64,000 nt of DNA, taken from NCBI RefSeq assembly GCF_037126465.1, contig NW_026999454.1:124001-188000 (forward strand), written 5' to 3'. Numbering within the stretch: position 1 is the first letter of the stretch; every line of letters begins with the position of its first letter. Source of the DNA: Ornithodoros turicata. Lineage: Eukaryota > Arthropoda > Arachnida > Ixodida > Argasidae. The position numbers were made by a program, and so were the translations under genes. Of this stretch, positions 1,944-61,009 are shown piece by piece. Below the pieces are notes generated by a model. The model ran no database searches. It was not told the origin of the DNA and saw nothing but the letters and a program-made list of their open reading frames with translations.

Positions 1944-2457
1944 CGTGCAAGTGATTAAGCCCTCAGAGCATGGAATGACGGGTGGTTTCGTTTTTGCCAT
2001 TTCCGGTTCCCGTTGGTTCGCAGAGCAGCATGAAGATGACGGTTTACTGTGTGTATTCATGTTTGGATTATAGTTGTCTACGGAAATACATGCCTAGATT
2101 TGTTACGATGGGTAACGATTTATTGATTTCGCTCGCAAAGCATACAATCGCCACTTCAACACGTCATAGGCGGTAAACATCATCTGTGTTGGTGGAAAGC
2201 AAAGGGTTGGAGGTGTCGCAGGTAATCTCATAGATAAAATATGATTCACATTTGGTATGACAACGTTTACCTTGTGATTCCGATAGCACTACACAATTCT
2301 GCACGTATCCCCGGGGGTTCGTACGTACTCAACGCAATTCCACGGCTTGCCTCGCTTCCTACGCTGGACATCGTTCCCTCCATCGGCTCGTTTCCCCCGT
2401 TTGTTATCCCACGTGACTGCACAGGGTTGGCAACAAACGGAGCAACTCCACTGTAGT

Positions 2458-3119
2458 CAGGGGCGAATCCAGGGAAGATCCTCGGGGGGGGGGGGGGGGG
2501 GGTGTCGCCATGTAAGACGGCGAGCTGCGGCGCTTTCATTTCACACCAGAACTTTATTTATGATCTACATGTTGCGAAGCTTAGCAAGCTGTAGAGGCGT
2601 TCCTCTACAGCCCTCCCTCCCTTACAAAAACATGCTCTTAGTCCGTTCAAAACAACGCATAACTGAAGGTGCTTGGTAACTGGTGCTACACCAGTATCTA
2701 TTTGTCTTCCTCTATACGCATGTCTAAACAGCAGAAAAATATGTCCTACCATTTTCCTAACGTGCTGTCTCTTTGTGAAGCTCAGTGAGGAGGCCTTAGC
2801 TTTGTAGACACCAGGCAGCCACTGACCCCCCAAACGTCAAATCGCTGTCTTTATCCACTGTGCAGTGTCCGGCGCGTTCCGCGCGCTGAGAGGAGGCGAA
2901 TGTGATTCCTCCTCGCACCACCTGCGTCTTCGCTCCTTTTTAGGCAATGAAGTGTTCGTCGGCGAGTATATGTCATGCCCTTCGCGCAATCTTGGGACGA
3001 AAGGCGCACGCGGGATTGGCGGGAAAACGGAGCGTGCGGCAAGAAAATCTGCCGGAATGGGGGTAGAGGTATGTCTCGGGGGGGGGGGGGGCAGGGCCAC
3101 CCCACTGGATCCGCCCCTG
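2458..3119. mobile_element. nonautonomous hAT-type transposon, 8-bp TSD
   Basis: The element starts CAGGGGCGAATCCAG and ends with the inverted complement CTGGATCCGCCCCTG: a 15-bp terminal inverted repeat with one mismatch. It is bounded by a perfect 8-bp direct repeat, ACTGTAGT, at 2450-2457 and 3120-3127. An 8-bp duplication with CAGGGG ends is typical of hAT elements. Both subterminal regions contain long G runs (about 2487-2502 and 3079-3091). The 662-bp interior has no transposase motif, so it depends on a partner enzyme. Confidence 0.85.
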
Positions 3120-6300: not shown

Positions 6301-9300
6301 GTAAGCATTGATGACCGGTGAAAGCAAAAGAAAATAAAAAAGGCGTGAAAATTTTTCCATAATGCCTAAACAACGACGTTCCCAATCAAAAGTAGAAAGA
6401 ACAGGAGTAAACTACTGAAGTAGAGCCAAATGCAGTTCATCCGAACTCCACCGTTCCACTCATGTGGAAACCGAGTTTCCCGGTTAACATTCGAGTATGG
6501 CATGGGCTGTATACCTGGAGTGCTCGGAAAGAAAATTCGTTTTTTTTGTTTCCTTGGCGAAATTACAAATTTTATGGTATATACAGGAACTCATGTTTAC
6601 TCTGATTACGCACACCGTAGACGCATAAAATACTCAGCTGGTGAGGTAAAACTTTAGGCGCACAGGAAAGGTGGCAGGGGCATGGATGAGAGCGTCGTAC
6701 ATTTCGTTAGGTTGAATACTGCCCAGTGGAGATCTCGGTAGGTTCCTCTTGGCGGAACGATCCAAAGACACAACTGCTTCCAACAACGTTTATTTGGGGT
6801 GCAAACATGAGTCACAATCTATCCCAGGCAAAAATCTGGAGTGGGACCACTTTAAAGTGGTTTATTAGACAGGTCTCACTTTGAGTGTGGGACCACTTAG
6901 TGACTGGGACCAGTTGAAAGTGGAACCAGCTTCACGATGGTCCCACTTCAAGTGGAACCAGTGGAATTGATCCAGAGGTCCCCTCTGCTAAGTGGTCCGG
7001 GATCCGACCACTTAGCAGCTGGGACCACTGAATGCATGACCGAAAATAATGCGTAGAAATGCGCATATTGCTCAAGTAAATACCGTTTATTCTGCTAAAA
7101 GCCTACACTGAGCAGAGAGAAATAATCAATACATCTCTACATGCACATACTACGTAGTATAATTCTGATCACTCACTGTGTCTAGACAAGGCATATGCCT
7201 GACTGTGCGATGCACTCACGGACCACAGGGAGCTTTCGTTCGTTGGCCACCTCACATCTTGTATTGTCTTGGAGAAGATGACACTCCTGTTTTCCATGCA
7301 CGTCGGCACATACGCCCCCTTCCTCGTCATCGTACGTTCGGAATCTTCTGATCCTGTTTCTCTTCAAGTTCCTCCTAAGTTTCTAAAATGAAACATCTAA
7401 TTAGGCATCAAAACAACACGGTCATCACTCATACCTGCAAACATTCGCGACGTGCAGTCCGGTTGGCGTTTCACAGTGCGTTCTTGGCCCTACGCCGTTT
7501 ACGTCTTCTTAGTGTCAAAACTCTTCCGGGAAATCGACAATGTGATGCATAGGAACCATTGTCATCGCATTGTCTTAGAAAGCGCACTAAAACACACGCA
7601 AATACTGCACAGGAGATATACCACCCTTGCGACGGCAACTGAAGACAAAACGAACTTGCTACTACGCGTCCAATATCCAACTGCCACCTGCCACCCTGCC
7701 ACCCTCTCCCTCTCGCCTCTCCTCTCCCTCTCCGCTCTCGCCGTTTGAAGTTTGAATTTGTTGCAGTCGTGGCGTCTTCACATTCCATAAGCCTCTGCAA
7801 TTATCTTTTCTTCTTTTTCGTTTTCTATCTACTAATTATTTAGCTTAATTTTTTGTTGTTCTTGAGACGTATTTTTTGACATTTCTCTAGTACCTAATAC
7901 CTTGTGATGATATTCACCTTCGATGAGAATATCTGCGCGAATTGGAGTCAGTGATTTCCCCAGAAATTCATTGCTCGGGGGTGCCGATCTTTCAGGGGGG
8001 GGGGGTATGCTTGGTGAAGGTTCCGCTTACGGAATTTTTCTTAGACACGGAAAGAATCGTGGCACAATGGTGACATATCTGCAGAGCTTTCCCGTTATAT
8101 TGGTATATGTTAGAACACAATACATTAGAATAGAGATTCATTATGAACGGCATTTCAACATTAAGAATCATAATGACACGACCGACAAAGAAAAAAGACT
8201 AGCACCTTGTCTCACGAAGCTCAATGAATACCTGTCAACCAACGGTGAAAACCTTACACGAAAAAAGCAGAATACCTCGCTTGATTGAGTTGGGCGTTAA
8301 TGGTTCTTCATGATCCACATTGAGTTTGCGTGCCCGCACGCATTTTTGCTCGTATATGCGCGCAATATATGCATATTGAAAGTAGTAATGTATCAGCTCA
8401 AGTATCCGGAAACTCACATCTTCGCCTGGACGCCATTAATTAGCAATTAGAGCTAATTGGGACCCCCCCACATTAATCAGGACCCACCAGGGAGTCATTA
8501 CACTAATTGGGGATCATCTAAGACACGTCCAGACCACTATGTGAGTTTCCGGCTACTTGAGCTGATAAAAAAAAAAAAAATAGATAGAGATAGAGTGGAG
8601 AGAACGAGTTTAGTTGAAGATCAACGAAGCCATCTTGTAGAAAGCGGTCCGGAACGGCCGCTGACTGTCGCTGGGCGACGGAGCACGGAGGCAGGTTGCA
8701 AAGCATCACAGCACCAGTTCCGGACATCCTGTGACGTCAGCTGTGACGTCATCATGGCATGTCTGGGCAAGTTAGGACAGCTCTGAACATGCAAGGAGAA
8801 AAACACTCGTAATACAGAGGCTGGGAAAGCAAGAGTACGCAAACCATCAATAGCTAACAACAAAATAGAACTAGTTACACAACAACAAATGATCCCACCA
8901 CAACAGGAGCGCAGAACCATGCGACTGCTCCATCCGAGAGGCAGGCAGAAACTGACTCGTAATGGTTTTTGTCCTGTATAAACCCCGCAGCTGCACCCCC
9001 TAGCGGTTACTTTCTCAACTAATCTCACAACAAAATTATTAAGAATCACGCCAGCGCTACTCCCGGTCCCAAGGCAGAAGATGATAGAAAATGGCGGGAA
9101 TGCCCGGACAACAGCAACCAGCACCCGACGTGCACGGGCACGAAAATCGCAAACAAAGCGGGAACAAAGTTGGCGAAAGCATTAGTTACACAACAAATCA
9201 CCTCACCACAGTAGGAGCACAGACCGATGCGACTGCTCTCGTCGACAGCCATGGATCAAGTGACGACGGAGCGAACGACCGCACGTCTTCTCCCAACGAG

Positions 9301-12300
9301 AGCCAGAGGTGGACTGACGTAAGCGCCACTCTACGGGTGCTACGCATGCGCGCGCTCGTAGCGCCCTCTGCGCGCTCCTACCGCCACCTGCGAGAGGCTA
9401 AGAGAGAAGAGCATTCCTGCGCCCCCTGCTGGCCGTTCTCATTGGTCGTGAGGCTAAGAGAGAAGAGCATTCCTGCGCCCCCTGCTGGCCGTTCTCATTG
9501 GTCGTGACGTCATCCTATTGTCTCAGGGCTACCCTGTTTTTTCCACTAATGCTCCTTTGGTCAATCTGCAATGAAGCCACAGTATGACGTCATCATGCAC
9601 CTGCGTGGCTCAAGGACGCGTACGTTCTAGACAGGGGACCTATTATTTATTGAATCACTATCCCATGATTATTTCCTTTATTCTTCTATAACGATTGAAT
9701 AGGAAACTATTGCAGAAGAGCACCATGCATGAAAGCTCATCGTAGGAATTCCAAAGTCTTACTAAATGAGACTTGCAAAAGAACAAAATATCCTAACACG
9801 TAACTCCATCAACGGCAAATAAGAGGACTAGGTACTCAACAAATCAACAAAGAGTAAGGGTAAACAGGAGCGCAGAACTCAGGGCAGCACTATCGTCAAG
9901 GCAACAACGTTCCTTGTCAAAAATAAAAAAATAAAAAACGTCAACACACGAAAGCATGCATATCGGGGCATGTCAGAACACGTCAGCACAAATTGTACGA
10001 CTGCTGGGCAACAGAGGAAAACAAACAAACACTTGAACAGAGTGAAAAAGACACTCACCATCATTTTTCCCGTTCACAGCATTCCCTCATTGTAAATCCA
10101 CTCGTTACAAAATCCACCTGCATCGTCGAACACCATTCACCAGTGACGAACCACACATCCGCACCCCATCAGAGGCAGACATAACCCCACCGAAGCTACG
10201 CTCTTCCACTGACGGCCAACGCCAGGAGCAGAATTTGCGTGTCGAGACCCGTCAGTGTCGAAGAGAGAAGTGAAACCTTGCGCCCCCTGCAGGCCGTTCT
10301 CATTGGTCGTGACGTCATCCTATTGTCTCAGGGCTACACAGTTTTTTTCCACTAATGCTCCTCTAGACAAGGTCAACCTGAAACAATAGTCTCTCGGTAT
10401 GCGGTCATCATGCATGTGCGTGGCTCAAGGACGCGTACGCTCTAGACAGGGCACCTGTTATTTATTGAATCACTATCCCTAGATTATTTCCTTTATTCTA
10501 CTATAATGATTGCGTAGGGAACTATTGCAGAAAAACACCATAGACAAGAGGAGATTGTAGCATTTCATTCCCAAAGTCTTACTGTACAGGAAAAAAAAAA
10601 TGGTTCAGGAAGACATAAAGTCACACACCTGTCCCCCTCGCGGTTACTCTCTGAACTAAATGAATCGCAAAATTATTAAGAATTGCTCTACTCCCATTCA
10701 AGGCAGCACTATCGTCAAGAATATGCCTTGTACAAAAGGAAAAAAGCTACATGCAGAAGGAAAGCATGTCAGAACAAGCCCAGGCATGTCAGCACATGTT
10801 TGTCAGACAAGGGGGGGAAAAAGCGAAAAGAAACAAAGAAGGAAACCAGCATCAAACTATTTCTTCTTATTCAAAAACAGTGCTCATCATAAATCTGCCC
10901 AGGACAATACACACTATTTTTCTATTGCCACACTTTTTTCCAGTAACGGTCAATGCATTGCTACAGACTGCGTGACGTCATCACATCCTGTCTGAAGAAG
11001 AAGACACCGGCAAATACTCCTATTATTTATTGAATCGCAAGATTATTTCCTTTGTCCTACTCTTAATGACATTGATTCTCTCATTAAAATTCAACAAAAA
11101 GCACCCCGCATATTAACGATTTTCACCCCAAAGGCTCATCATGGTCATTAGAATTACAGTAAACTGCCACTGCTCTTTTAAAATAATAAGTGAGACCACT
11201 CAACATCACCTCCAGGCTTATGTAATACATCACCCTTTCTATGCTCATACATTCGTTGTCTGAGGCTACATCTGCGAGCAAAAAAGGCGCGGAAGCCGGG
11301 TGGGCAAAGTTCCATTCGCGCATTGCGAGCAAAAAGGCGCGAAAGCACAAGACAGAACGCCTTTACGGGAACACGATAGCATTCCTATACTATATTAATG
11401 ATTATTGCATTGCAGTTTAGAAAAACTACAACTAAACTATAATTTTAGGAGCCCAACTTTCTATGGAAACTATAATTGCCCTATTACTTGGATCGCTACT
11501 AATGAAGCGCTCCAATTTTTTCTCTCTTCCCATTTCAGCCTTGTCATGCAGGGAAGCAGACTCATATCAAAAATAATTAATTTACACTGAGGGTGCCGTG
11601 CTTCAGGAATTCCTATCCTGCGCTCAGATGCAAGCATTTCTTCACGGATACCTTTAACAGCTGACTTCCTCACATATCGAACACCCAACAACATCAAACA
11701 AACAATCAGAGAAACCCTCTTCTCAGCTGCACCATGCGACTTTCTTCTGCGTAAAATCGGTGATTTGAAGAAGAGAGCAGCGAAAAATTGCGCGCGCTTG
11801 TGCTCGACCTGAAGCATATGCCAATAAACCAAGAAAAAGGCACTCATGTCTGGTATCTGATAGTGCCACATACACAGACGCATTGCCCTTGCGTAAAGAA
11901 AGCACAGGACACGGATACACAAATTTCCTTAGGTGAGCAGGGAAAAGGCTTAAGACCACAGGTCACGACACATCGCCACGCGGCTAGCACAACATGACAC
12001 CAACAAGATACTAGCAGCGGGAAGAACTGCAACACTGCTAAACAAGTCCAGACATGCCACGATGGCGTCACAAATCAGGAAGAAAAAAAAAAGAAAAAAA
12101 AGCACACGCACGCACGCACAGAGGACAACGGATTAAACACACGGTGCGCTCAGGAATAATCGTAGCGTCACCGCACATCGCTACGAAGCTAAACGTCTAA
12201 CACAAGACGACACCAACAAGATATTAGCGAAGGGTAAAAATTGCAACACTACCGATCAAGTCCAGACATGCGACATCGCATACAAAACACTGCTCATCGG

Positions 12301-15300
12301 GGAAAAGGCCTAAGCCTGCGACGGATCATCATAGAGCGTACACAACTTCATTTTTTTCTATTTTGCGTAAACTAAACGCGGTCTGCTTGGAAAACGACGT
12401 ACAAATTTTCTTAAGGAGCAGAGAAATATTTCTACTCCGTGCTGAGATACCAGCATTTCTGCTCAAAAACCTGCAAAATTAAGCACTGCTTACTTCGTCA
12501 AGATATCGAACAAAATCAAACAAACAACCCCACTTCCACTGGTAGAACACTATTCAGCTTTTACGCAGGAGGCTTTCTTCTACATAAAAGTAGAGAAAAT
12601 AAGAAAAAGAGCAGCGAAATATTACACGCACTTTTGCTTGACTTAAAAAACCTGAAGCATATGCCAATAAACCAAGAAAAAGACACTCATGTCTGGTATA
12701 TGATAGTGCCGCATACACAGACGCATTACCCTTGCGTAAAGAAAGCACAGGACAGGGATACACAAATTTCCTTCAGTGAGCAGGGAAAAGGCTTAAGCCG
12801 TACCGCCTAGGAATAATCGGAGAATCACCGCTTATCGCTACGCGACTAGCACAACATGACAGCAACAAGATATCAGCGAAGGGTAAAAATTGCAGCAAGA
12901 AAGACACTACTGAACAAGTCTAGACATGCGACATCGAATGCCAAAACACTGGTGATCGGGGAAAAGGGCTAAGCCTGCGGCGGATCATCATAGAGCATAC
13001 ATAAGTTCATTTCGCGTAAACTAAACGCGGTCTGCTTGGAAAACGACGTACAAAGTTTCTTAGGGAGCAGAGAAATATAGCAATTTCTACTCCGTGCTCA
13101 GATACCAGCATTTCTGCTGAAAAACCTGCAAAATTAAGCACTGCTTACTTCATCAAGATATCGAACACCCAACAAAATCAAACAAACAACCCCACTTCCA
13201 CTGATAGAACACTATTCAGCTTTTACGCAGGAGGCTTTCTTCTACATAAAAGTAGAGAAAATAAGAAAAGAGCAGCGAAAATTACACGCACTTTTGCTCG
13301 AATAGCAATAAGAGAAAAAAATAAAATAAAATATCGACACACACGCTAATAAACTGTGACAAAGACACCCATTTCTGCTATCAGATAAGTATTGCATAAT
13401 GCTAAATACTCATTTGCATTGTCCCTGCGTGAAGAAAGCACAGGGCAGGGATACACAATTTATCTTAAGCGAGCAGGGAAAGTCACTTCTACTCGAACAG
13501 CTTAATACCATAAAGTCAGAATTTTTGCAAAGCAAATAAAGCTTGAACAGCGCTACGAACGTGACAGACACATACTAACAAACAAACAAACAAACATACA
13601 AACAAACAAACACTTCTATTCATTTCTATTGATAAAGGCGTAAACCACACTACAAGAACAAAGCACGCTGCTTCAGGAAAGCGTATCAAATGCATCGCAA
13701 CAGGACCGGCTCTCATAAAATAGCCTGCCCAAAACGAAGACTTCACCAGGTTCGCGAGGTAATTCCATTAAAAACGCTCTCGGTCTATCCTACAGATAGC
13801 AATGCAAGCGCTGCTTCCCTTATTTTTTAAGCCACTATTCCACGCAATGGTACATAAATGTATCACTCGTGTCACATGAAAAAGCACACACAAAGAACTT
13901 ACTTGTCAAGTGGGATCCCTGGTTCAGGAAAGCGCGCGCGCCCGCGCGCACACATACACAGACGCACACTCACATTTTCACAGTCACGAACACAAAGTCC
14001 ACCACAACCACATAAATCCATATTATTCCTCAGGTCAATAATTATCCTACCATCGTCAAAAGATGGCTCACTCTTGTATGCGATCGCAAAGCGATAGGTC
14101 CTCGTTCCGGATGTAATAGGATAACGCCACTCGGCCGACGCGAACCAAAAAAGAAAGAAAGGAATGCGCGTTCCTATACCTCCACAAAGAAAACGGTGCC
14201 GTGCTTCTACGCAGCGCTCATCATACAGGAGTGAATTGTCTTCTTCGTTTTCCTTTTATTTTCTTGCACCCATATATTTTGCAAGAATACTATAGAGCAG
14301 AACGGACAAATGTGAACATCATTCGCTACACACTGTAGCTCTCACCATTTTTAAACCAAACCACTTAACATGTGTTCATAGGTCTTCACTAAATAGGTGA
14401 GCCGATAATGACTCAAAATGAAATGAAATCAAATAAAATAATCATTCCAGCATCGCTGGCTGCAAGCTTGGGTACCCTGCTTGGGTCTGCTGGCGCTGGA
14501 ATAAAAGATTTATCGCGAGGGTACTACAATGGTGAGCTCTGCTGCTGTTTAAGTGATAAAACAGTGCACCTGCTCGGGGAAAGGGCTCGCGCGCGCGTCC
14601 AAACCGCGAGGCCCGCGTTGCGCTCGCACAGGGAATCGCGCGCGTCGCGTCCCGAGAACGGGTCCGCGCGCGGCTCGCGTGGGGCGCGGTTCGGGAGCAC
14701 TGTTTTATCACTTAAACAGCAGCAGAGCTCACCATTGTAGTACCCTCGCGATAAATCTTTTATTCCAGCGCCAGCAGACCCAAGCAGGGTACCCAAGCTT
14801 GCAGCCAGCGATGCTGGAATGATTATTTTATTTGATTTCATTTCATTTTGAGTCATTATCGGCTCACCTATTTAGTGAAGACCTATGAACACATGTTAAG
14901 TGGTTTGGTTTAAAAATGGTGAGAGCTACAGTGTGTAGCGAATGATGTTCACATTTGTCCGTTCTGCTCTATAGTATTCTTGCAAAATATATGGGTGCAA
15001 GAAAATAAAAGGAAAACGAAGAAGACAATTCACTCCTGTATGATGAGCGCTGCGTAGAAGCACGGCACCGTTTTCTTTGTGGAGGTATAGGAACGCGCAT
15101 TCCTTTCTTTCTTTTTTGGTTCGCGTCGGCCGAGTGGCGTTATCCTATTACATCCGGAACGAGGACCTATCGCTTTGCGATCGCATACAAGAGTGAGCCA
15201 TCTTTTGACGATGGTAGGATAATTATTGACCTGAGGAATAATATGGATTTATGTGGTTGTGGTGGACTTTGTGTTTGTGACTGTGAAAATGTGAGTGTGC

Positions 15301-18300
15301 GTCTGTGTATGTGTGCGCGCGGGCGCGCGCGCTTTCCTGAACCAGGGATCCCACTTGACAAGTAAGTTCTTTGTGTGTGCTTTTTCATGTGACACGAGTG
15401 ATACATTTATGTACCATTGCGTGGAATAGTGGCTTAAAAAATAAGGGAAGCAGCGCTTGCATTGCTATCTGTAGGATAGACCGAGAGCGTTTTTAATGGA
15501 ATTACCTCGCGAACCTGGTGAAGTCTTCGTTTTGGGCAGGCTATTTTATGAGAGCCGGTCCTGTTGCGATGCATTTGATACGCTTTCCTGAAGCAGCGTG
15601 CTTTGTTCTTGTAGTGTGGTTTACGCCTTTATCAATAGAAATGAATAGAAGTGTTTGTTTGTTTGTATGTTTGTTTGTTTGTTTGTTAGTATGTGTCTGT
15701 CACGTTCGTAGCGCTGTTCAAGCTTTATTTGCTTTGCAAAAATTCTGACTTTATGGTATTAAGCTGTTCGAGTAGAAGTGACTTTCCCTGCTCGCTTAAG
15801 ATAAATTGTGTATCCCTGCCCTGTGCTTTCTTCACGCAGGGACAATGCAAATGAGTATTTAGCATTATGCAATACTTATCTGATAGCAGAAATGGGTGTC
15901 TTTGTCACAGTTTATTAGCGTGTGTGTCGATATTTTATTTTATTTTTTTCTCTTATTGCTATTCGAGCAAAAGTGCGTGTAATTTTCGCTGCTCTTTTCT
16001 TATTTTCTCTACTTTTATGTAGAAGAAAGCCTCCTGCGTAAAAGCTGAATAGTGTTCTATCAGTGGAAGTGGGGTTGTTTGTTTGATTTTGTTGGGTGTT
16101 CGATATCTTGATGAAGTAAGCAGTGCTTAATTTTGCAGGTTTTTGAGCAGAAATGCTGGTATCTGAGCACGGAGTAGAAATTGCTATATTTCTCTGCTCC
16201 CTAAGAAACTTTGTACGTCGTTTTCCAAGCAGACCGCGTTTAGTTTACGCGAAATGAACTTATGTATGCTCTATGATGATCCGCCGCAGGCTTAGCCCTT
16301 TTCCCCGATCACCAGTGTTTTGGCATTCGATGTCGCATGTCTAGACTTGTTCAGTAGTGTCTTTCTTGCTGCAATTTTTACCCTTCGCTGATATCTTGTT
16401 GCTGTCATGTTGTGCTAGTCGCGTAGCGATAAGCGGTGATTCTCCGATTATTCCTAGGCGGTACGGCTTAAGCCTTTTCCCTGCTCACTGAAGGAAATTT
16501 GTGTATCCCTGTCCTGTGCTTTCTTTACGCAAGGGTAATGCGTCTGTGTATGCGGCACTATCATATACCAGACATGAGTGTCTTTTTCTTGGTTTATTGG
16601 CATATGCTTCAGGTTTTTTAAGTCAAGCAAAAGTGCGTGTAATATTTCGCTGCTCTTTTTCTTATTTTCTCTACTTTTATGTAGAAGAAAGCCTCCTGCG
16701 TAAAAGCTGAATAGTGTTCTACCAGTGGAAGTGGGGTTGTTTGTTTGATTTTGTTCGATATCTTGACGAAGTAAGCAGTGCTTAATTTTGCAGGTTTTTG
16801 AGCAGAAATGCTGGTATCTCAGCACGGAGTAGAAATATTTCTCTGCTCCTTAAGAAAATTTGTACGTCGTTTTCCAAGCAGACCGCGTTTAGTTTACGCA
16901 AAATAGAAAAAAATGAAGTTGTGTACGCTCTATGATGATCCGTCGCAGGCTTAGGCCTTTTCCCCGATGAGCAGTGTTTTGTATGCGATGTCGCATGTCT
17001 GGACTTGATCGGTAGTGTTGCAATTTTTACCCTTCGCTAATATCTTGTTGGTGTCGTCTTGTGTTAGACGTTTAGCTTCGTAGCGATGTGCGGTGACGCT
17101 ACGATTATTCCTGAGCGCACCGTGTGTTTAATCCGTTGTCCTCTGTGCGTGCGTGCGTGTGCTTTTTTTTCTTTTTTTTTTCTTCCTGATTTGTGACGCC
17201 ATCGTGGCATGTCTGGACTTGTTTAGCAGTGTTGCAGTTCTTCCCGCTGCTAGTATCTTGTTGGTGTCATGTTGTGCTAGCCGCGTGGCGATGTGTCGTG
17301 ACCTGTGGTCTTAAGCCTTTTCCCTGCTCACCTAAGGAAATTTGTGTATCCGTGTCCTGTGCTTTCTTTACGCAAGGGCAATGCGTCTGTGTATGTGGCA
17401 CTATCAGATACCAGACATGAGTGCCTTTTTCTTGGTTTATTGGCATATGCTTCAGGTCGAGCACAAGCGCGCGCAATTTTTCGCTGCTCTCTTCTTCAAA
17501 TCACCGATTTTACGCAGAAGAAAGTCGCATGGTGCAGCTGAGAAGAGGGTTTCTCTGATTGTTTGTTTGATGTTGTTGGGTGTTCGATATGTTGAGGAAG
17601 TCAGCTGTTAAAGGTATCCGTGAAGAAATGCTTGCATCTGAGCGCAGGATAGGAATTCCTGAAGCACGGCACCCTCAGTGTAAATTAATTATTTTTGATA
17701 TGAGTCTGCTTCCCTGCATGACAAGGCTGAAATGGGAAGAGAGAAAAAATTGGAGCGCTTCATTAGTAGCGATCCAAGTAATAGGGCAATTATAGTTTCC
17801 ATAGAAAGTTGGGCTCCTAAAATTATAGTTTAGTTGTAGTTTTTCTAAACTGCAATGCAATAATCATTAATATAGTATAGGAATGCTATCGTGTTCCCGT
17901 AAAGGCGTTCTGTCTTGTGCTTTCGCGCCTTTTTGCTCGCAATGCGCGAATGGAACTTTGCCCACCCGGCTTCCGCGCCTTTTTTGCTCGCAGATGTAGC
18001 CTCAGACAACGAATGTATGAGCATAGAAAGGGTGATGTATTACATAAGCCTGGAGGTGATGTTGAGTGGTCTCACTTATTATTTTAAAAGAGCAGTGGCA
18101 GTTTACTGTAATTCTAATGACCATGATGAGCCTTTGGGGTGAAAATCGTTAATATGCGGGGTGCTTTTTGTTGAATTTTAATGAGAGAATCAATGTCATT
18201 AAGAGTAGGACAAAGGAAATAATCTTGCGATTCAATAAATAATAGGAGTATTTGCCGGTGTCTTCTTCTTCAGACAGGATGTGATGACGTCACGCAGTCT

Positions 18301-21300
18301 GTAGCAATGCATTGACCGTTACTGGAAAAAAGTGTGGCAATAGAAAAATAGTGTGTATTGTCCTGGGCAGATTTATGATGAGCACTGTTTTTGAATAAGA
18401 AGAAATAGTTTGATGCTGGTTTCCTTCTTTGTTTCTTTTCGCTTTTTCCCCCTTGTCTGACAAACATGTGCTGACATGCCTGGGCTTGTTCTGACATGCT
18501 TTCCTTCTGCATGTAGCTTTTTTCCTTTTGTACAAGGCATATTCTTGACGATAGTGCTGCCTTGAACGGGAGTAGAGCAATTCTTAATAATTTTGCGATT
18601 CATTTAGTTCAGAGAGTAACCGCGAGGGGGACAGGTGTGTGACTTTATGTCTTCCTGAACCATTTTTTTTTTCCTGTACAGTAAGACTTTGGGAATGAAA
18701 TGCTACAATCTCCTCTTGTCTATGGTGTTTTTCTGCAATAGTTCCCTACGCAATCATTATAGTAGAATAAAGGAAATAATCTAGGGATAGTGATTCAATA
18801 AATAACAGGTGCCCTGTCTAGAGCGTACGCGTCCTTGAGCCACGCACATGCATGATGACCGCATACCGAGAGACTATTGTTTCAGGTTGACCTTGTCTAG
18901 AGGAGCATTAGTGGAAAAAAACTGTGTAGCCCTGAGACAATAGGATGACGTCACGACCAATGAGAACGGCCTGCAGGGGGCGCAAGGTTTCACTTCTCTC
19001 TTCGACACTGACGGGTCTCGACACGCAAATTCTGCTCCTGGCGTTGGCCGTCAGTGGAAGAGCGTAGCTTCGGTGGGGTTATGTCTGCCTCTGATGGGGT
19101 GCGGATGTGTGGTTCGTCACTGGTGAATGGTGTTCGACGATGCAGGTGGATTTTGTAACGAGCGGATTTACAATGAGGGAATGCTGTGAACGGGAAAAAT
19201 GATGGTGAGTGTCTTTTTCACTCTGTTCAAGTGTTTGTTTGTTTTCCTCTGTTGCCCAGCAGTCGTACAATTTGTGCTGACGTGTTCTGACATGCCCCGA
19301 TATGCATGCTTTCGTGTGTTGACGTTTTTTATTTTTTTATTTTTGACAAGGAACATTGTTGCCTTGACGATAGTGCTGCCCTGAGTTCTGCGCTCCTGTT
19401 TACCCTTACTCTTTGTTGATTTGTTGAGTACCTAGTCCTCTTATTTGCCGTTGATGGAGTTACGTGTTAGGATATTTTGTTCTTTTGCAAGTCTCATTTA
19501 GTAAGACTTTGGAATTCCTACGATGAGCTTTCATGCATGGTGCTCTTCTGCAATAGTTTCCTATTCAATCGTTATAGAAGAATAAAGGAAATAATCATGG
19601 GATAGTGATTCAATAAATAATAGGTCCCCTGTCTAGAACGTACGCGTCCTTGAGCCACGCAGGTGCATGATGACGTCATACTGTGGCTTCATTGTAGATT
19701 GACCAAAGGAGCATTAGTGGAAAAAAACAGGGTAGCCCTGAGACAATAGGATGACGTCACGACCAATGAGAACGGCCAGCAGGGGGCGCAGGAATGCTCT
19801 TCTCTCTTAGCCTCACGACCAATGAGAACGGCCAGCAGGGGGCGCAGGAATGCTCTTCTCTCTTAGCCTCTCGCAGGTGGCGGTAGGAGCGCGCAGAGGG
19901 CGCTACGAGCGCGCGCATGCGTAGCACCCGTAGAGTGGCGCTTACGTCAGTCCACCTCTGGCTCTCGTTGGGAGAAGACGTGCGGTCGTTCGCTCCGTCG
20001 TCACTTGATCCATGGCTGTCGACGAGAGCAGTCGCATCGGTCTGTGCTCCTACTGTGGTGAGGTGATTTGTTGTGTAACTAATGCTTTCGCCAACTTTGT
20101 TCCCGCTTTGTTTGCGATTTTCGTGCCCGTGCACGTCGGGTGCTGGTTGCTGTTGTCCGGGCATTCCCGCCATTTTCTATCATCTTCTGCCTTGGGACCG
20201 GGAGTAGCGCTGGCGTGATTCTTAATAATTTTGTTGTGAGATTAGTTGAGAAAGTAACCGCTAGGGGGTGCAGCTGCGGGGTTTATACAGGACAAAAACC
20301 ATTACGAGTCAGTTTCTGCCTGCCTCTCGGATGGAGCAGTCGCATGGTTCTGCGCTCCTGTTGTGGTGGGATCATTTGTTGTTGTGTAACTAGTTCTATT
20401 TTGTTGTTAGCTATTGATGGTTTGCGTACTCTTGCTTTCCCAGCCTCTGTATTACGAGTGTTTTTCTCCTTGCATGTTCAGAGCTGTCCTAACTTGCCCA
20501 GACATGCCATGATGACGTCACAGCTGACGTCACAGGATGTCCGGAACTGGTGCTGCGATGCTTTGCAACCTGCCTCCGTGCTCCGTCGCCCAGCGACAGT
20601 CAGCGGCCGTTCTGGACCGCTTTCTACAAGATGGCTTCGTTGATCTTCAACTAAACTCGTTCTCTCCACTCTATCTCTATCTATTTTTTTATTTTTTATC
20701 AGCTCAAGTAGCCGGAAACTCACATAGTGGTCTGGACGTGTCTTAGATGATCCCCAATTAGTGTAATGACTCCCTGGTGGGTCCTGATTAATGTGGGGGG
20801 GTCCCAATTAGCTCTAATTGCTAATTAATGGCGTCCAGGCGAAGATGTGAGTTTCCGGATACTTGAGCTGATACATTACTACTATTGAACAGTCACTTTC
20901 AAATGATTTTAGAGAAATGCATGCTACGATCATGTGCATGGCTGTGGTCCTACAGCACAAGTTTGACAGTACATGATGTAATTCGCTCCGCTGGACTCAC
21001 TACCAGCTAGAACGTGGTGGTGGCCGAGTTGGTTGGGGTCACCTGAGAAATTTCAGGGGGGGGGGGGTGTTGCAAAAATGCAGGGAGGGTGTACACCCCT
21101 GATTGGTGTTACAGGGATACAGCATACATTTGATCGCAGACGCGCGCACCTGGATAAACAGCAATAAAAAGAGATCATGCATGTGCTAAAATTGATCAGA
21201 GTAATAGATCAAACAAAACCAGAAGGACATATGGCAAGTGTGGACAAGATGAAATCTCAAAGGGGAAAGCTGGGAAGCTGCCCAACTTGGAGTCCCAAGT

Positions 21301-39300: not shown

Positions 39301-42300
39301 GAACAATTGCCGTAAGTTATATAGCCATTTCATTTTGTCAGTTACATCCACCCATGAAAACATTTCAAGGCAGAAAAGGTAAAGGAAAAAGGGCACTCAT
39401 AAAAATAGGCTCAGCGCGCGGCACGCTATAGAAGAGAAGAAAGTGAACAATTTTAGCACGTGAAGAAGAATAACTAGAAGCACGATCCCGGGCGAATACG
39501 GTAGCATTCTCGGGAAGGTAGACGTTGCTTACAGCACCGTGCGTCGGAGATTTCGTGCGCACGTCAAAGAACACCAAGAGGGCGAATTATTCGCAGTCCT
39601 ATCTTGCGGCACGTGCAGCATGTAACCAGACAAGTGTAGGCCAAATCACCTTACCTGCAACCTGACATGTATACTACACCCAGTTATTATTAGTTATATG
39701 GTCTAAAGGTAATTGGAGTAGATGTACACGATAGGTGTGTCAGCCTGTTTGTGTGGAGACATGCTGCACGTGCCGCACAGTAGGACTGCGGATAATTTCG
39801 ACCACCTGGGGTCCCTTGGACGTATGCCGGAAGTCGGGTGGCAATCATAAGGCCGAAGCTCACAACGCCGAATTATCAAAAGACCGAAACTCGAAAGGCC
39901 GAAAAATCAAAACATCGAGCAATCATAAGGCCGAAAACCAAACGGCCGAAAAATCAAAACACCGAAAAATCACAAGGCCGAAAAGTCACAAAACCGAATT
40001 ATCGAAACGCCGGCAAATGAGGAACCCAGGATACGTGAACTGGTATTCCAACTGCGATAAAAAAATTAGCTCTACAGATTAAATAGAATAAACTCGTTGG
40101 GAATTAATACAGCAAATAAATCGTTTCATCGAACATCGCATTAATAAAGTACTTTCGATGACTTAAGGGAAAAAACAAAAAGGAAAAGTAGAGATATGAA
40201 CTACTGTGTTATTGTGTGTTTATTGTACACGGTGGCAATCAGGTTCGGGTTACCAAATGTAGAGAAACACCATCTCCTCTACAATTCATTCAGGGGGTGA
40301 TACAAGTCATTCACTGGCATTCACCTACCACACACGTTCTCTTTGTAGTAAACATGTTTTAGATTAATGCTAGATTAGGTTGGCAATACTAGGTTATAGT
40401 TTATTGCTTTTTTAAAAGTGAAAAGAGCAATTCCATTTCAGGTCTTCTGCTTCTTGGGCCCTTTTATTTCGGTGTTCGGTTGGGTGTTCTGATTTTCGGC
40501 CTTTTGACTTTCGGCCTTCACATTGCTCAGCCTTATTATTTTTCGGCCTTTTGGCTTTCGACCTTCTGACACTTCGGCGTTCTGATTTTTCGGCCTTTTG
40601 ATAGGCTTCCCCGGAAGTCTCGACATACGGTGTTGGAAGCAGTGGTTTGCATCCCCCACATTGTTACCGTTCTCGGCCGGGATTGAACCCGCGATCTTGA
40701 GCTCAGCATACGGTCAGTATACGGTCTTTTAACTGGAACCCAAGTGTTCATCATAACTTACAAAACTAGCGTGTAGCTGAGTGAAGAAGATCAGACACGG
40801 ACAGTGCGATTTCTTCATGGCCCTTTCACGCCGTTACACTAAAAAATTTCACCGTCAAAATGGGCAAATGCACGGCAACAATGCTGCCAACTGTCGCCCG
40901 TTTCTTCTACTGTGACCCGTAAAATATGTATGGATGCCCGTTATAAGGATGCTATCATGTTGAAAACCAGAGACAACAAACAGAAAAACACAAATCCTAA
41001 GGCGGCAACCACCTTTTTGCCAACTGAATCGGGCCAACGGAGCGCCAACTCAGCGTGAACGGAACGGTATCGAAGCTGTGCAACCGCATGGAGCAGAATG
41101 TCCACGTTGAGGTTGTCATGGTGAAGCGTCGGCATCGCGTTTACCACCGCTTGTTGCACGCGATGTGGCAATGCTTATTGTAGCAAACTTCTGTACGCAT
41201 TGTTTAGTAACATAAATGATATTTTAGCGGTTCTTGAAAAAGTACGGTGCCAATAACATCTAGAAATCAGGTGTTTACAAAAAAATTTGAGATACGAAGA
41301 GAATGTTGGCTTATGAGTGTTTCTAGCAATGCTCACTAAAGAAATATCAGACTGCATTTTTGTTACCGTTATCTCATTACACATTTCCAATTTGCTATAT
41401 GCCACAAATAATATTTTGATGTTTCATTTAGTCACCTTCGCCTTGCACACACGTTGCCACCTCCTGCCAAACGATATATTTTAAGTTTATGTCCTTATAC
41501 TGAACAAGTTTGACGTTCCAAAAGGGTGGCCTCCTTGAAGTTCACTCGACGGGTCTGCGTGCCCTTCTAGGAGGCAGGGCGAAGAGGGCAAAGCCCGAAG
41601 GAAAAATAAAAGCGGTCACAGGCATGGTCACAGGTGACTTTGTCACGTGCTTGTGACATTTCCTGTGAAGGACGTTTTCATTGGCGCACACGGTTCCGTC
41701 GGGTGATGTCACTTCCTCTCCTCAGACTAAATATTTATCATATATCATATATTCATATGAATGGCAGCAGAACTTGAAAGGTGTAAAGTCGCGCCCGGAT
41801 CCTAGCAGAAGAACTCCTACCTCTAGAACAGCATATTTATTCTACGAGTACAGATACAACGTTCTACCGTTCGAGCCCATAAGAAAAAAAATGATACAAA
41901 CAAAAAAAGTCATCTTCCTCTTCTAGTCATTGCATTCTTCCTCTTCGTCGTACAGTCATTTCTTCACACTGCAAGATCCTTCACACACCCCCCGAAGAAA
42001 TGTTCAGTACATTACACCTCGAGTTTATATAGCAGATCTCCAGGCCGTAGCACTGTGGTTCGATCTGACATGCGGACCTCGAAAGCCCGTGTTTTTCCGT
42101 CTTTGCCTGGAAAGCTTCGTATTATTTGTCCCGTCGGCCATCCTTGTCTCTTCTTCCTGTCATCGCGGACGATCACGATGTCATCCACTTGAAGTTGTCC
42201 TCCTTTGCTTTTGTTATGAAAGTTCCTGAGCTCCGTGAGATATTCCGCGGACCACCTCTTCCAGAAGGTATTCAAACTCTCTGCCCGTTTCTGCCACATT

Positions 42301-45300
42301 ATCTGTAGAGTACTACCACTGCTCTCTGGTACATCGCTAGCTTTGGTGTTCGGTAGCGTTGTCAATCGCTTTCCCGTCAGGAATGCTGATGGACACAGTG
42401 GATGCGTACCTTCCTCCTCATACACGAATGTTATTGGACGAGAATTCAGGATTGCTTCGACTTCTGTGAGAATGGTATTGAGTTCGGCTTCCTTCAGACA
42501 TCTTGCGCCGATCGTCTTCTTCAAGGTGACTTTCACCGATCGTACTAGACGTTCGTAGAAGCCGCCCCACCATGGGGCATATGGTACGTTATACCGCCAC
42601 TCTACTCTCCATTCAGCAATCTTCTCTTCGATTTCATGACCGTGTGTCACATCCCATAAATTTCTAATCTCCTTGTTGCTCTTGCGGAAAGCCTTGGCAT
42701 TGTCGCTATAGACAACTTTGGGTATTCCTCGCCGCGCTACGAACCGCCGGAACGCCAGTAGAAATGCGGTCGCTGACATTGCTTCTACAAGTTCAAGGTG
42801 TACGGCTCTGTTCACTGCGCACACAAAAATTACGAAGTATGCCTCTTTTGCTGAACGTTGTGCCTTTATCCACACTGGCCCGGCAAAGTCGAGTCCTGTT
42901 ACTGCGAACGGCTCTGACTGTGTCACCCTCGTTGACGGCAGAGGAGCCGTTTCCTGTCTCGCAGCCCTTACATTGTATCGTTGGCAGACGACGCATTTCT
43001 TCAAGATGCTCTTGATCAACTGTCGCGCGTGCACAATCCAGAACCTTTCCCTTAATTGGACGAGAGTGTCTCTTACTCCTGCTTGAAGCAGATCCCAGTG
43101 ACACTGCCTGATCAGCAGTTCCGCATAATGATTCTTCTTTGGTAGGACGACGGGGTGTTTCTGATCATACGGCAAATCACTGTGATGTAGCCGACCTGCT
43201 ACCCTCAGTACGCCACTGGTGTCCATAAACAACTTGCTGCCTTGCAATGTTGACCATATTGGTAATGGCTTGTTACTCAGCACAGCCGCTATTTCTTCTG
43301 GAAAGGCTTTCCCTTGCACAAGTTTGATACAACACTCTTCGGCACGTTGCAACTCCTGCGCTGTCAGGGGTCCGGTAGTGTAACTTTTCTTTGTAGCGTT
43401 CCCTCTGAATCGCAAAATCCAGGCCACAACCCGATGTAACCTTCTCACAGAGCTGTACCTTTCCATCTCTATGACGTCTTCCGTCTCTGTAGTCAGCGTT
43501 TGCAGAACTTTTGTTTTCTTCTCCTCCAATTCGTTTCTCTCCAGGTCATCGTCCATGTTCCACACAGGCCATTCGCTGTCGCTTCGAGTCATCCAGCTTG
43601 GTCCTGACCACCACAGCTCGCTTTCAGTCATCTTCTTTGCTTGCATTCCTCTGGTCAGTAGATCTGCTGGGTTTTCTTTGCCCTTGCAATACTTCCATCC
43701 ATCTATTTGAGTAAGCCTCTGAATTTCTTGTACCCGGTTTTGCACGAACTGCTTCCAGCGCTGGGGATCCCCACGTATCCAGCAAAGCGCTATTCTGGAA
43801 TCTGTCCAAAAGTGAAGTCGAACTGGACTGATTTTGATCTTTTCAGTGATATAGGAGACAAGCCTTGCTCCCACTAGACATGCCATCAACTCCAGTCGAG
43901 GTATTGTCAGCTCTTTTATTGGGGCGAGCCTTGACTTTGCCATCAGCATCGCTGCGGTTCTTGTTCCACAAGAGTCTTCCATAACTGTGTACGCTACCGC
44001 ACCGTACGCTGTAGGACTCGCATCACAAAACATATGTATCTCTGTATGTACCACGTCTTTGTCCATGTCTCGGCCATACTACCTCGGTACTCTTATGTCT
44101 GGTAGATCCTGTAGTTCGGAGCCCCACCGGATCCACGTTGTTTGAAGGTCTGTAGGTAAAATGTCTTCCCATCCAATCTTGCGCTTCCACAACAGTTGGA
44201 AAAGGATTCTACCACGGATCGTAAACGGTGCCAACATTCCCAGTGGATCATATAGGCGGGCTATGATCTGCAAGACACGTCGTTTCGTGTCGCCACCTTC
44301 ATGGTGTAGACTCCACAAGTCGCTCATGCCAAATGTTAAAACGTCCGTGTCCGGCAACCACGATATTCCTAGAACTTTCTGCATATCCTTGGGATCACCC
44401 AATGCTCGTTCGCCCGACTCTGCCTGAAGGGACTCGCGCACGTCGCCATGATTTGTTGCCCACTTATGCAGCCTCATTTTCGTTTGTTCCAAGAACGCCG
44501 TCGCTTCTTTTGCGATCTTCTGTGCTTCCTGTACGTCATTTGCTCCGGTTATAAGATCATCCACGTACATGTGGCTACTAAGGAGTCGTGCTGTTTCTGG
44601 ATATTCCTCTTCCATCATCTTGAAGTGGCTGCGCAAAGTAGCCGCGAGCAAAAACGGGCTTGCCGTCGTGCCGAAGGGAACCCTCGTCATCCTCCAGCTT
44701 TCTACCGGTGGTAGTGGCATTCCCGCTTCTGGTTTTGTCTCATACCACAGATACCGTAAGGCGTTTCTGTCCTCTTCCCTCACGGTTATTTGCAAAAAGG
44801 ATTTTTCTACATCGGCCCCCAAAGCGATCTTATGGACCCGGAAATTCAGCAGTAATCCCACGACGTCAGGATTTAAATTCGGTCCAGCTTCTAGGCACTG
44901 GTTAAGCGATTTTGTTGAGCCGCAACTGGATGAGCAATCGAACACCACTCTAGTCTTAGTCGTACTACTAGATTCTCTCAAAATGGCTTGATGTGGCATA
45001 TAGTAGACGACGCTTTGTCCTTCGTCAACTTCGTCAACCACTCTTTCTGCCATGCTGTTATCACTGTACATCCGGATCGCTTCGTCATACCTCTTCAGCA
45101 ACTCTTCGTTGCGAGCCAATCTCCTAGTTAACTGTGTGAGCCTCTTCAATGCCACTCCTTTGTTGTTTCCCAAATTCAGCGTCGACTTGTACGGGAGCGC
45201 AACTTCATAGCGCCCTCCATTTTGTGTCACACTTTGGAAGAACCGACGTAGTACCGGGTTCTCTTGTTCGTCATCCGTGTCTGGAACCACGCCAATGGAT

Positions 45301-48300
45301 TCGAGCTGCCAAAACTTTTCTAGCGTCGAATTCCCTTCGTCTTCGTCTACGGACAGTCTGAGCACCAACGTTTGATTGCAATGCTGAATTGTCCCTGCTC
45401 TAGGTGACACTCCATGTACCATCCAGCCGATCCGTGTCTCCACTGCTCTTATGCTGCTGCCTAGTCGTACAATCCTTCCAGTCACTAGATCCCAGTACTG
45501 ATCGGTGCCTATGAGAACCTGTATTTCCTCTTCATTTTCTGGACACACCAGCTGCTGGACAGGAAGGTTCTTCGCTCTCATTTTGTCGATTATGAAGGAG
45601 CATGGCATAGGTGTGTTTTGGCCACTGATGACGTCGGTGACTAGCGCTTCCATGTCGTACTCATTGCCACCCTGTAGACTGAGAAGCCTTATGGATACTC
45701 TCCGAAACGTTCTTTCTTCTTGTCGTCCCCCAAAGACTCCTACTTTCAGTCGTTCTTGGCCGACTGTCTCACACTTCAAATTTTGGGCGGTTCGTTGAGT
45801 AACAAATGTCCTTTGACTGCCCGTGTCGAACATTATCTTGCCCTTGCTCGCTTCCCCCGGACCTTTACACCAAGCGACTACTGTCTGTAGTATAGTCTCT
45901 GGGCCTTTGGTGCGTCGAGTCAGCTCTAAACTGAACTGCGACGATTCCGACGTCGACTTGTCTGTGCTGAGCGAGCTGTCTCCCCTGGGACTACACACAG
46001 AAGCAGCATGTCTTCCTTGACACTTACTGCACTCTACTTTACGCCAACACCTCCTGGATACGTGGTTGGGCAAGGTGCACCTGAAGCACCGCCCTCCTTC
46101 TTTGAGCTTGCGTAGCTTTTCTACTGAAATCGTCGCTTGGCACTCAGCCGTCTTGTGATCCTTTGCTTTGCAGAAAAAACATTCCGAGTATTCCTCTGCT
46201 GTGTGAAGCAACGTTGACGTCGATGACGGCCTCTTGGCTCTCTTCGCGTGTGTCTTAACTTCTCTGTCCTTGTGTGATCCCGCCGGCTCTTTCCTGTCTC
46301 CCTCACGCGTAAAGATCGATCTTTCGCGACTGTCTACTTCAACCCTGAGGAAGACCAAAAAGTTATTCAGTTTGACAACATGCTGGCTGCTTGCACGCGC
46401 TGAGGTGTTGTCGTCGCCGGCCTCTTGGCCGCTCCTGCTCTGGCTCGTTGTTCCAGCTTCTGCCTGCAATGCCCCTTTGTTGAAGTCGACCACCAACTCT
46501 TGAGGTACTAGTCGAAGCATAATTGAATACAGCATGGATGCGAACGACTCTTCGGGTACACCCAGTGCCTTCAATGCTCTCACTTGTGACACGACTCCGT
46601 CGTATAGCTTTCTCAGTCCTCTCACATCGTGCTGTGCTCTCACCGGTTGCAGGTTAGTAAGTCTGCTCATGTGATCTTCAATCTGAAGCGTCTCGTTCCC
46701 AAAACGTCGTTTGAGGATCTCCAGAGCATCGTCGTAACATCTCTCCGTCGGCGGCAACCCCGCGATAGCTGATGCCGCTTCCCCTGTAAGCGCTGCTCTT
46801 AAATAGTGGAACTTGTCGCACGTGGATAGCCTTTGATTGTCGTGGACCATTTGGCGAAACTGCTCCCAGAACGCGAACCAGTCCCTCCTTTGACCGTTAA
46901 ATTTGACGAGATCCAGCTTCGGCAGCTTCCCGTGCTGGTTCATCCTTCCAGCGTTCTCCGACTGTCTCGACCCTGACTGACGTTCTGACGTCCGACTTAT
47001 GGCCGTAGAATTTCGCTCGAGCCTGAACTGTAGCCGTGCGAGCAATGCAGTTGCCCCGTCGATATACTTGAAGCCCTCTTGCTGCTCCGCGTCGACGTCT
47101 CCCTCTGACCACAAAGGCTCCAGCTCAGCGTCCACTTTCTCCAAGTTCTCTGTCTGTTTCTTTATCCTAGCAACAAGTACTTCGATGTCTTCTTCTGCAA
47201 GGTTTACGTCGCCAAGCTTCTCTGTAGCTTCTTTTACGGTTCGAGTTACCGGACTTCTCAGACCTTGGCGACGCCTCTTTAGGCATTCCATGCGTTCCAT
47301 CTTCAAGCGGTAGGCCTAGCCGTTGACACTGATACTTCGAAGATGGTTAGGGGTCCTTCGTCTCTCTTTCTCCCGGGTTTCGGCACCACCTTTCTCCTTG
47401 TAAAGTCGCGCCCGGATCCTAGCAGAAGAACTCCTACCTCTAGAACAGCATATTTATTCTACGAGTACAGATACAACGTTCTACCGTTCGAGCCCATAAG
47501 AAAAAAAATGATACAAACAAAAAAAGTCATCTTCCTCTTCTAGTCATTGCATTCTTCCTCTTCGTCGTACAGTCATTTCTTCACACTGCAAGATCCTTCA
47601 AAAGGAACGGTGACCTACTAAGCGAACAATAGACGACGGACCGATGAGCCGGTTTCTGCCAAGGGTAGATATTTAGTCTGAGGAGAGGAAGTGACACAAC
47701 CCGACGGAACCGTGTGCGCCAATGAAAACACGCTTCACAGGAAATGCCACAAGCACGTGACAAAGTCACCTGTAATCATGCCTGTGACCGCTTTTTTTTT
47801 TCCGGGCTTTGCCGTCTTCGCCCTGCCTCCTAGAAGGACACGCGCGGACTTCGACGTGGATATCGCAGGTTTCAAAGAGGCCACCCCTTTGGAACGTTAA
47901 ACTTGTTCAGTATAAGGACATCAACTTAAATTATATCCTTTGGCAGGAGGTGGCAAGGTGTGTGCAAGGCGAAGGTGACTAAATGAAACATCAAAATGTT
48001 ATTTGTGGCACATGCCAAATCGGAAATATGTGAGGAGATAACGGTAATAAAATGCAGTCTGATGTTTCTTTAGTGAACATTGCCAGAAACACTTATAAGC
48101 CAACATTCTCTTCGTATCTCAAAATTTCTTGTAAACACCTGATTTCTAGATGTTATTAGCACCGTACTTTTTCAAGAACCGCTAAAATATCATTTATGTT
48201 ACTAAACAATGCGTACAGCAGTTTACTACTATAAGCATTGCTACATAGCGTGCAACAAGCGGTGGTAAACGCTAGGCCGACGCATCACCATGACAACCTC

Positions 48301-56838: not shown

Positions 56839-57126
56839 ACGCGTGAGCGGCGTCGGCTGAGTGCCATCTGGGGGCAGAGGTTCGAACGTAGACGGGGACG
56901 TGCTTTTGGCGATGCTACATCCACTGGGTCGTTCCATACACCACGGCTCTTAGTTGGCCCGTGAGATGGCGCTGCTCGATCTGTGACCACGAAAATGGTC
57001 GGCGATAAGTACTGAGTCATTGTCCCATTTCTGTCTCTCTCTCTTTTTTTTCTGTTTTCGTGGAATGAATTGACAGATTTTGACGGCTCCTGTGTTCGCT
57101 TGCTTTTGCTGTTAATAAACGTTTCA

Positions 57127-57480
57127 TGTTCGCGTCCTTGAGCGATGCCCGCGTTTGTTTGTTTTTGCTTTTAATGAACGTTTTATGATGGCTTGTTTTT
57201 GCTTTTAAACGTTTTATGATAGGCGTCCTTGAGCGATGCCCGCGTTTGTTTGTTTGTTTTTGCTTTTAATGAACGTTTTATGATGGCTTGTTTTTTTTAA
57301 CGTTTTATGATAGGCGTCCTTGAGCGATGCCCGCGTTTGTTTGTTTGTTTTTGCTTTTAATGAACGTTTTATGATGGCTTGTTTTTTTAACGTTTTATGA
57401 TAGGCGTCCTTGAGCGATGCCCGCGTTTGTTTGTTTGTTTTTGCGTTTAATGAACGTTTTATGATGGCTTGATTCATTGC
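57127..57480. repeat. tandem repeat, period about 91 bp, four units
   Basis: The unit GCGTCCTTGAGCGATGCCCG, GTTTGTTTGTTTTTGC and GAACGTTTTATGATGGCTTG starts near 57132, 57223, 57315 and 57405, with a diverged fifth near 57507. The inverted equivalent enters the window end at 63890-64000. Confidence 0.8.
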
Positions 57481-58628: not shown

Positions 58629-58789
58629 TGCCCATATACACATTCCTCATCTTAACACACTTTTTCGCACCCAGAAAGCGGTCCAAGGGCCTGGGTTGTT
58701 CACCCTCTCACGTTCGACAACTTGATAGGTTTTTCCTCTCTGACAGATAGTGACTAAAAATGGCATACATGCCTTTCACCGCTAGTATC

Positions 58790-59420
58790 CCAACACTTTG
58801 TCAACTAATAAACAACTTTGACAAATAAATAAATAAATTACACTCTTGAATGGTTAATTCGCGTCGGACGTGGACAAATTTTAACAAGGTATTTTTAATG
58901 TTTGTAGTCAATAACTGACATTGTATAGGAGAAAGAAGTTTTAGTTTATTTACTTTGCGCCGATATGTGCAAGCGAATCTAAATTTGGTTCTTGCAGCAT
59001 ACATGGAACCGAAGAAGTCCCTCGAAACCCAGACAATATAAGCCGGGGAGGTTGTCTTTGTAGTTTGTATACTTTTTCCTTCTTCTTCTTTTTCTTTTTT
59101 TTTATCGTGTGCATGTGTAGGGATTTCAGACTGCAGATGCATACTCTAACCAAGGTTGAACTAAGGTTTTATATGGCTGTTAATTTAGTATCATTATTTT
59201 GTACCATGACGAAACTTCCTTCTTAGCATCCACAGACTTCGAGTGGCTTTCGCGCACATATGGCTATCCCATTTCAGATGGTTCCCTTTAAATTTGTCGC
59301 CAACAATGAAAGGGTGCCCAGAAGAGGCACAGACTATCGGCTGCTCGCAACCTGAGGCCATTTGCTTCAATATGTGTCCTACGGTTCGCCGGATTCTTCC
59401 GCATTATTCTATTCGGCTGT
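58790..59420 (-). pseudogene. CR1/L2-type LINE reverse transcriptase remnant
   Basis: On the minus strand 59112-59181 reads YKTLVQPWLEYASAV, followed by a stop and NPYTC. Downstream is a segment with GFRGTSSVPCMLQEPNLDSL, which fits the D-(y/h)-x-x-x-SSVTxMLxxLxWxxL region after the RT domain. Same family, orientation and flanks as 49480-49910. Confidence 0.65.
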
Positions 59421-59670: not shown

Positions 59671-59699
59671 GACACCGGAGTGGTTATAGGAATGGCCCG

Positions 59700-61000: not shown

Positions 61001-61009
61001 ATTGTCTGG

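Follow-up and report, generated by a model that had tools for sequence, protein, structure and literature searches.

A giant palindromic element of probable Polinton descent in the genome of Ornithodoros turicata

The stretch of 64,000 nucleotides analysed here (Ornithodoros turicata, assembly GCF_037126465.1, contig NW_026999454.1, positions 124,001 to 188,000; C172:124001-188000 in our numbering; hereafter the window) holds a near-perfect palindrome at 8381–20883. Its arms, of 6,187 bp each, are reverse complements, the left one lying at 8381–14567 (+ strand) and the right one at 14697–20883 (- strand), and they enclose a central loop at 14568–14696 (+ strand) with 76% GC. This spacer is 129 nt long when counted from the innermost 18-mer and 123 nt by ungapped pairing. 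Nine single-nucleotide polymorphisms (SNPs; seven transitions) and three indels of 1–2 nt, two of them in homopolymer runs and one an extra A, separate the two arms. The termini read AGTAGTAATG...CATTACTACT, and a target-site duplication, ATTGAA, stands at 8375–8380 and 20884–20889, beyond which the DNA differs between the left and right sides. The arm length, the AG...CT termini and the exact ATTGAA on both flanks had been reported in an earlier note on the window, and direct reading and arm alignment bear them out. The rule given in that note, by which position x pairs with position 29264-x, holds in register at 8381–9542 and 11672–14570 and fails between these segments, where indels shift the pairing by 1–2 nt.

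The whole assembly (1.07 Gb, 379 contigs) was searched for related elements. The 22-nt end motif AGTAGTANKGKATCAGCTCAAG has 458 exact copies (221 forward, 237 reverse) and the reversed control pattern has none. Among the first 100 listed places, all on C1, 74 make up 37 convergent pairs at spacings below 30 kb; their median length is 13.7 kb, the middle half spans 12.1–14.9 kb and the extremes are 3.5 and 28.9 kb. Fourteen pairs besides the window were present among the 40 scored matches; ten were retrieved, and C159, C8, a 17.8-kb pair on C4 and a 26.9-kb pair on C62 were left out. All ten are giant inverted repeats of 12.6–14.2 kb. The arms align over 5.98–7.05 kb at 99.3–99.8% in nine of them, and in C3 only as rearranged pieces at 93–99%. 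The inverted structure recurs in 11 further pairs that were read at the ends (1.5 kb inside each), in a few only partly. This recurrence, together with the 458 end motifs against none for the control, excludes chance.

Of 11 copies, counting that of the window, seven have a central GC-rich loop of 100–129 nt; the loop of C1b is off centre, and the centres of C92, C149 and C3 are larger and asymmetric. Searching with the loop gave 792 candidates. Each of the 40 that were scored has a reverse match at its own location as well, which means that the arm pieces adjoining the loop are inverted there. Twelve scored loops are on C1, and three of these fall within listed pairs, no more than 4 nt from the pair midpoint. 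The palindrome of the window is a real mobile element and belongs to a large family in this genome. A scan of viral contigs with a 19-nt stretch of the palindrome end gave no matches.

Target-site duplications were compared in 23 entries, consisting of 12 pairs from the end pattern, the ten retrieved copies and the window; one of the pattern pairs is the retrieved copy C1a, leaving 22 distinct elements. The 12 pairs account for 24 of 30 pattern loci, and the six without a convergent partner (L033, L034, L039, L040, L049 and L056) were left out. An exact 6-bp duplication flanks 21 of the 22 elements, the window copy included, the exception being L050/L051 (ATCGCG versus AATGCG). When left and right flanks were deliberately mismatched, 2 of 506 pairings agreed, both from the element entered twice. 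The 6-bp target leans towards a pyrimidine at the third position and a purine at the fourth. The earlier note had proposed that the palindrome is mobile but not autonomous, with AG...CT ends and duplications of 6 bp, and had suggested a search for the same end at other loci as a check; that search, now run, supports the proposal and produced no refutation. At one locus (L007), the right end of one palindrome copy (1924) lies 291 bp from the left end of another (2215), with N between them.

The ends and duplications recall Polintons, also known as Mavericks. According to passages of a study of vertebrate Mavericks, (AGT)2//(ACT)2 is the commonest end motif in these elements and their duplications are of 6 bp (PMC8097293). 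By direct reading, the palindrome begins with the same AGTAGT (8381–8386, + strand), and the motif recurs in the four Polinton copies read from the same genome, which is rich in such elements and holds several families of them. The profile PF03175 (PolB) returned 1,253 candidates on many contigs, and 91 were scored and listed above the cut-off, many in frames longer than 1,100 amino acids (aa). Ends were read from one copy in each of four families, and all four copies have AGTAGT...ACTACT ends and an exact 6-bp duplication: family a on C1 (11.5 kb, beginning AGTAGTAATA, duplication CTCGTC), family b on C2 (15,056 bp, beginning AGTAGTAATGTA, duplication ACAGTG), family c on C7 (16.8 kb, duplication GAGGCC) and family d on C4 (15.1 kb, duplication CTCGTG). 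In family c, an integrase and an ATPase-like frame (AAA_14 and Pox_A32) score above the cut-off, and chromodomain and adenovirus-protease matches below it. The polymerase of family b was placed by profile. A diverged palindrome-like end was also observed at locus L062 (~2234–3071), 1.2–2 kb past the right end of a family-d Polinton.

As judged by alignment, the outer 1 kb of the palindrome is homologous to the end of the family-b Polinton. The window copy and b have the same first 12 bp, which 7 of 11 copies share. Imperfect hairpins follow at nearly the same place, at positions 11–187 of the palindrome (window 8391–8567, + strand) and 13–186 of b. Further inwards, positions 175–333 of the window copy are 66% identical to b 176–341, and a 163-bp block at 842–1004 (window 9222–9384, + strand) is 93% identical to b 711–872 (70–95% over the 11 copies), where the collinear homology ends. 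The stretch 191–840 aligns to b with a score of 222, against a mean of 120 (sd 13.8, maximum 157) for 100 shuffles. Local comparison of b 1–872 with the 11 copies gave 150 matches, with none in any of 20 shuffles and none for the reversed sequence. After filtering, 106 of the 150 put b 340–700 inside the arms beyond 1.5 kb, in degenerate tandem units, so that part of the arms seems to have been made by repeating Polinton end sequence. In the window, such units of ~650–840 bp, in parts like b 375–637, occupy 11740–13481 (+ strand), and repeat comparison also revealed two diverged copies of a ~320-bp unit at 9456–10583 (9456–9763 and 10261–10583, + strand). The possibility that the terminal hairpin is a separate TA-flanked miniature inverted-repeat transposable element was considered and dropped: other copies read GATCAG instead of TATCAG, and the hairpin of b sits at nearly the same place.

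A search with b 1–1200 gave 40 scored places, 15 of which match b only as far as position 872 (14 places) or 859 (one place), 872 being the point at which the collinear homology of the palindrome to b stops. One of these places, near 142.548 Mb on C1, is adjoined by another b match, with a PolB match nearby, and is probably a rearranged Polinton. Another element, C77:1381351–1394195, has both ends 97% identical to b over 872 bp. Two 250-bp stretches just within these ends repeat each other in inverted orientation (99.2%), match the inner arm of the palindrome at 91–95% and have no match in the 2.5 kb of b that were compared. That palindrome sequence would be present inside this element had been predicted before it was read, and it was found there; at least one element thus pairs family-b ends with the palindrome backbone.

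Genes were looked for in the palindrome and not found, and we therefore do not count it among autonomous Polintons. The 47 frames of at least 60 aa over one arm and the centre gave only three weak Pfam matches (E 0.025–0.076), none of them to Polinton genes (protein-primed PolB, integrase, protease, ATPase). Comparing 54 frames of the family-c Polinton with the 11 palindrome copies gave no match below E 0.1, and every frame of at least 100 aa is interrupted in one or more of the 11 left arms. The earlier statement that the palindrome has no recognisable gene agrees with all three comparisons, subject to a short frame discussed below.

We consider it very probable, on the strength of these comparisons, that the palindrome is a gene-less, non-autonomous element of Polinton/Maverick descent and giant foldback shape that Polinton enzymes presumably mobilise in trans. 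It is a foldback element by shape and a Polinton descendant by its ends, duplications and homology, and a foldback shape can thus arise from a Polinton lineage. A link to Polintons had already been suspected in the earlier note and is backed by the AGTAGT ends in four families (one copy each), the homology to the end of b and the C77 chimera. The same note also raised the idea of a possibly undescribed class of giant hairpin element. This we would not uphold, as the ends, the b homology and the C77 chimera place the palindrome not apart from Polintons and argue for a foldback-shaped derivative of them.

Several observations weigh against this interpretation. The proposal to look for full Polintons sharing the palindrome ends was successful as regards AGTAGT, present in four of four families, and not as regards the exact 22-nt end, which was found in no Polinton; none of the 23 scored PolB matches in the listed span of C1 lies inside a listed pair. 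Four copies (C4b, C3, C6 and C1c) begin AGTAGTATGGGA and not with the b-like first 12 bp. When the first 230 bp of eight copies and four Polinton ends were aligned globally and compared with shuffles, z values ranged from -1.2 to 2.6 and were mostly not significant; diverged or exchanged hairpin stems may lie behind this result, and the case for homology relies on the local comparisons. Of family b, 2.5 kb from the start and the opposite end were read, and the ATPase-like frame scores below the cut-off. Of the first 100 listed ends, 26 lack a partner less than 30 kb away, and on C1 nine of the 12 scored loops fall outside listed pairs, so that many copies must have other or mutated ends. In all but one of the 11 left arms a frame of 108 aa stays open (window counterpart 10664–10975, among the 47 frames), and it may represent a small gene. 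Finally, the inter-arm SNPs of C149 are clumped (p<0.001) and include 8 of the 19 SNPs, described next, for which both alleles occur elsewhere, so that some conversion or end exchange does occur.

How the arms remain alike was addressed with a tree of 20 arms from ten copies (C3, with its rearranged arms, was left out). The two arms of each copy are sisters (support 0.99–1). Within a copy, SNP divergence between the arms is 0.11–0.54%, and the left halves of different copies differ by 0.7–8.3%. At 116 of 135 inter-arm SNPs, one of the two alleles is absent from all other copies examined; at the remaining 19 both recur elsewhere, and at none are both absent. Because the differences are mostly private, these sequences suggest, as the simplest account, that each insertion starts with identical arms, which later diverge by mutation and are now and then converted. 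The arms of Y-chromosome palindromes are kept alike by gene conversion, and the same Polinton-derived element might likewise owe its matched arms to ongoing conversion in the chromosome and not to a reset at transposition. This alternative is possible but in our view doubtful. It would fit the observation that the arms within a copy are far more alike than the copies are, and the clumped differences of C149 at 73–105, many with both alleles elsewhere; clumping is marginal in C4b (p 0.058) and C92 (p 0.071), and the longest interval free of SNPs is nominally long for C130 (p 0.036), C1a (p 0.012) and C149 (p 0.006). Yet clumping is absent in 7 of 10 copies (p above 0.1), and the 116 private SNPs are expected of mutation after insertion with identical arms.

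Other origins of the palindrome appear far less plausible. Fold-back artefacts are known in long reads, as part of one report describes (PMC12870357), and a read of this kind joined into a contig would be expected to leave mirrored flanks without a target duplication. What is seen instead are outer flanks that differ, 6-bp duplications that are exact for 21 of 22 copies, a preponderance of transitions among the inter-arm SNPs of the window copy, and a similar loop in copies on many contigs, which makes an assembly artefact exceedingly improbable. Independent insertion of two 6.2-kb elements head to head would explain why each arm has a full end, but a single duplication pair flanks the whole element, a similar central loop is shared by 7 of 11 copies and the three C1 loops within listed pairs lie so close to the midpoint; we regard this origin as very unlikely, and the palindrome is inherited as a unit. 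Hardly more persuasive is a classical foldback element without Polinton kinship, mobilised by a cut-and-paste transposase (Mutator-like or P-like). Tetris, in the available portions of its description, has long arms with internal tandem repeats, a short middle domain and 8–10-bp duplications (PMC4079207), and the palindrome resembles it in the first two respects; the 6-bp duplications, the AGTAGT ends, the homology to the end of Polinton b and the C77 chimera speak against it.

An element of Polinton descent and foldback shape thus stands between known kinds. The palindrome is like Polintons of families a–d in its (AGT)2//(ACT)2 ends, 6-bp duplications, terminal inverted repeats (TIRs) and similar total size (11.5–16.8 kb in the four copies read), in addition to the homology of its outer 1 kb to b. 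It differs from them in that none of the genes for polymerase, integrase, protease, ATPase or capsid was recognised, and in being almost all inverted repeat, whereas the TIR measures 1,062 bp in b, roughly 569 bp in c and at least some 300 bp in a and d. With foldback elements (FB, Tetris, Galileo) it shares very long inverted repeats, internal tandem repeats and a short middle domain, the features by which such elements are defined and which the window palindrome displays, as well as reliance on another element, Tetris having no gene. It departs from them in its 6-bp duplications, in place of the 8–10 bp of Mutator-type foldback elements, its Polinton ends, its length of 12–14 kb and its almost wholly palindromic make-up. 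An analogy may be drawn with defective or self-complementary genomes of protein-primed and parvovirus replicons, with regard to the palindromic genome and to the presumed copying through a hairpin by helper enzymes, whereas the palindrome is known here as a large chromosomal family. No description of giant palindromic, foldback or non-autonomous Polinton derivatives was found in a literature search of titles and the starts of abstracts, with most subscription journals and Repbase outside its reach.

The ends and duplications are consistent with a mechanism in which Polintons of family b, or similar ones, supply the integrase and the palindrome is inserted with a 6-bp stagger. The protein-primed polymerase of the Polintons would start at the AGTAGT ends and copy the palindrome; the displaced single strand might then fold into a hairpin of ~6 kb. 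In such a model, pairing of the arms in each round would reset them, and the new copy would insert with identical arms. For vertebrate Mavericks, a role of the terminal repeats in jumping-back during protein-primed replication is expected, according to passages of PMC8097293. One intriguing, if tentative, extension suggested by the sequences is that the palindromes are satellites of Polintons, which would copy themselves extrachromosomally by a protein-primed route via a hairpin, be held at 12–14 kb to fit the capsid of the helper, re-insert with matched arms and have grown these arms by reiterating filler from the helper end. Hints in this direction are the near-helper size of a gene-less element (half of the 37 pairs at 12.1–14.9 kb, single pairs at 3.5–28.9 kb) and the Polinton-b-like filler in the arms. 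Virions of Polintons had not been observed (PMC8097293). The palindrome, which seemingly depends on Polintons, gives a direct handle on whether their genomes still replicate in a free, protein-primed and packaged form: it is gene-less, almost wholly palindromic, numerous and near helper size, and its free form, terminal protein and presence in particles could be sought. The family is also a natural record of the survival of very long palindromes in a chromosome.

The remainder of the window holds further repeats. An inverted-repeat element at 41015–48392 has arms of about 730 bp (91%), carries no AGTAGT at its ends and contains a BEL/Pao long terminal repeat (LTR) retrotransposon at 41782–47600, whose 202-bp LTRs are identical and which has two long frames of 688 and 1,078 aa. 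Two tRNA-like matches at 49056–49113 and 49382–49449, one of them within a 92-bp inverted repeat, are perhaps a tRNA-derived short interspersed nuclear element. At 57098–64000 lies a long, foldback-like inverted-repeat element whose arms contain tandem repeats of 91 bp and which extends past the end of the window. Arrays of a 15-bp TTCGATCAAACGG-like unit are scattered over the right part of the window, at 50166–50261, 58414–58490, 59595–59667 and 61025–61098.

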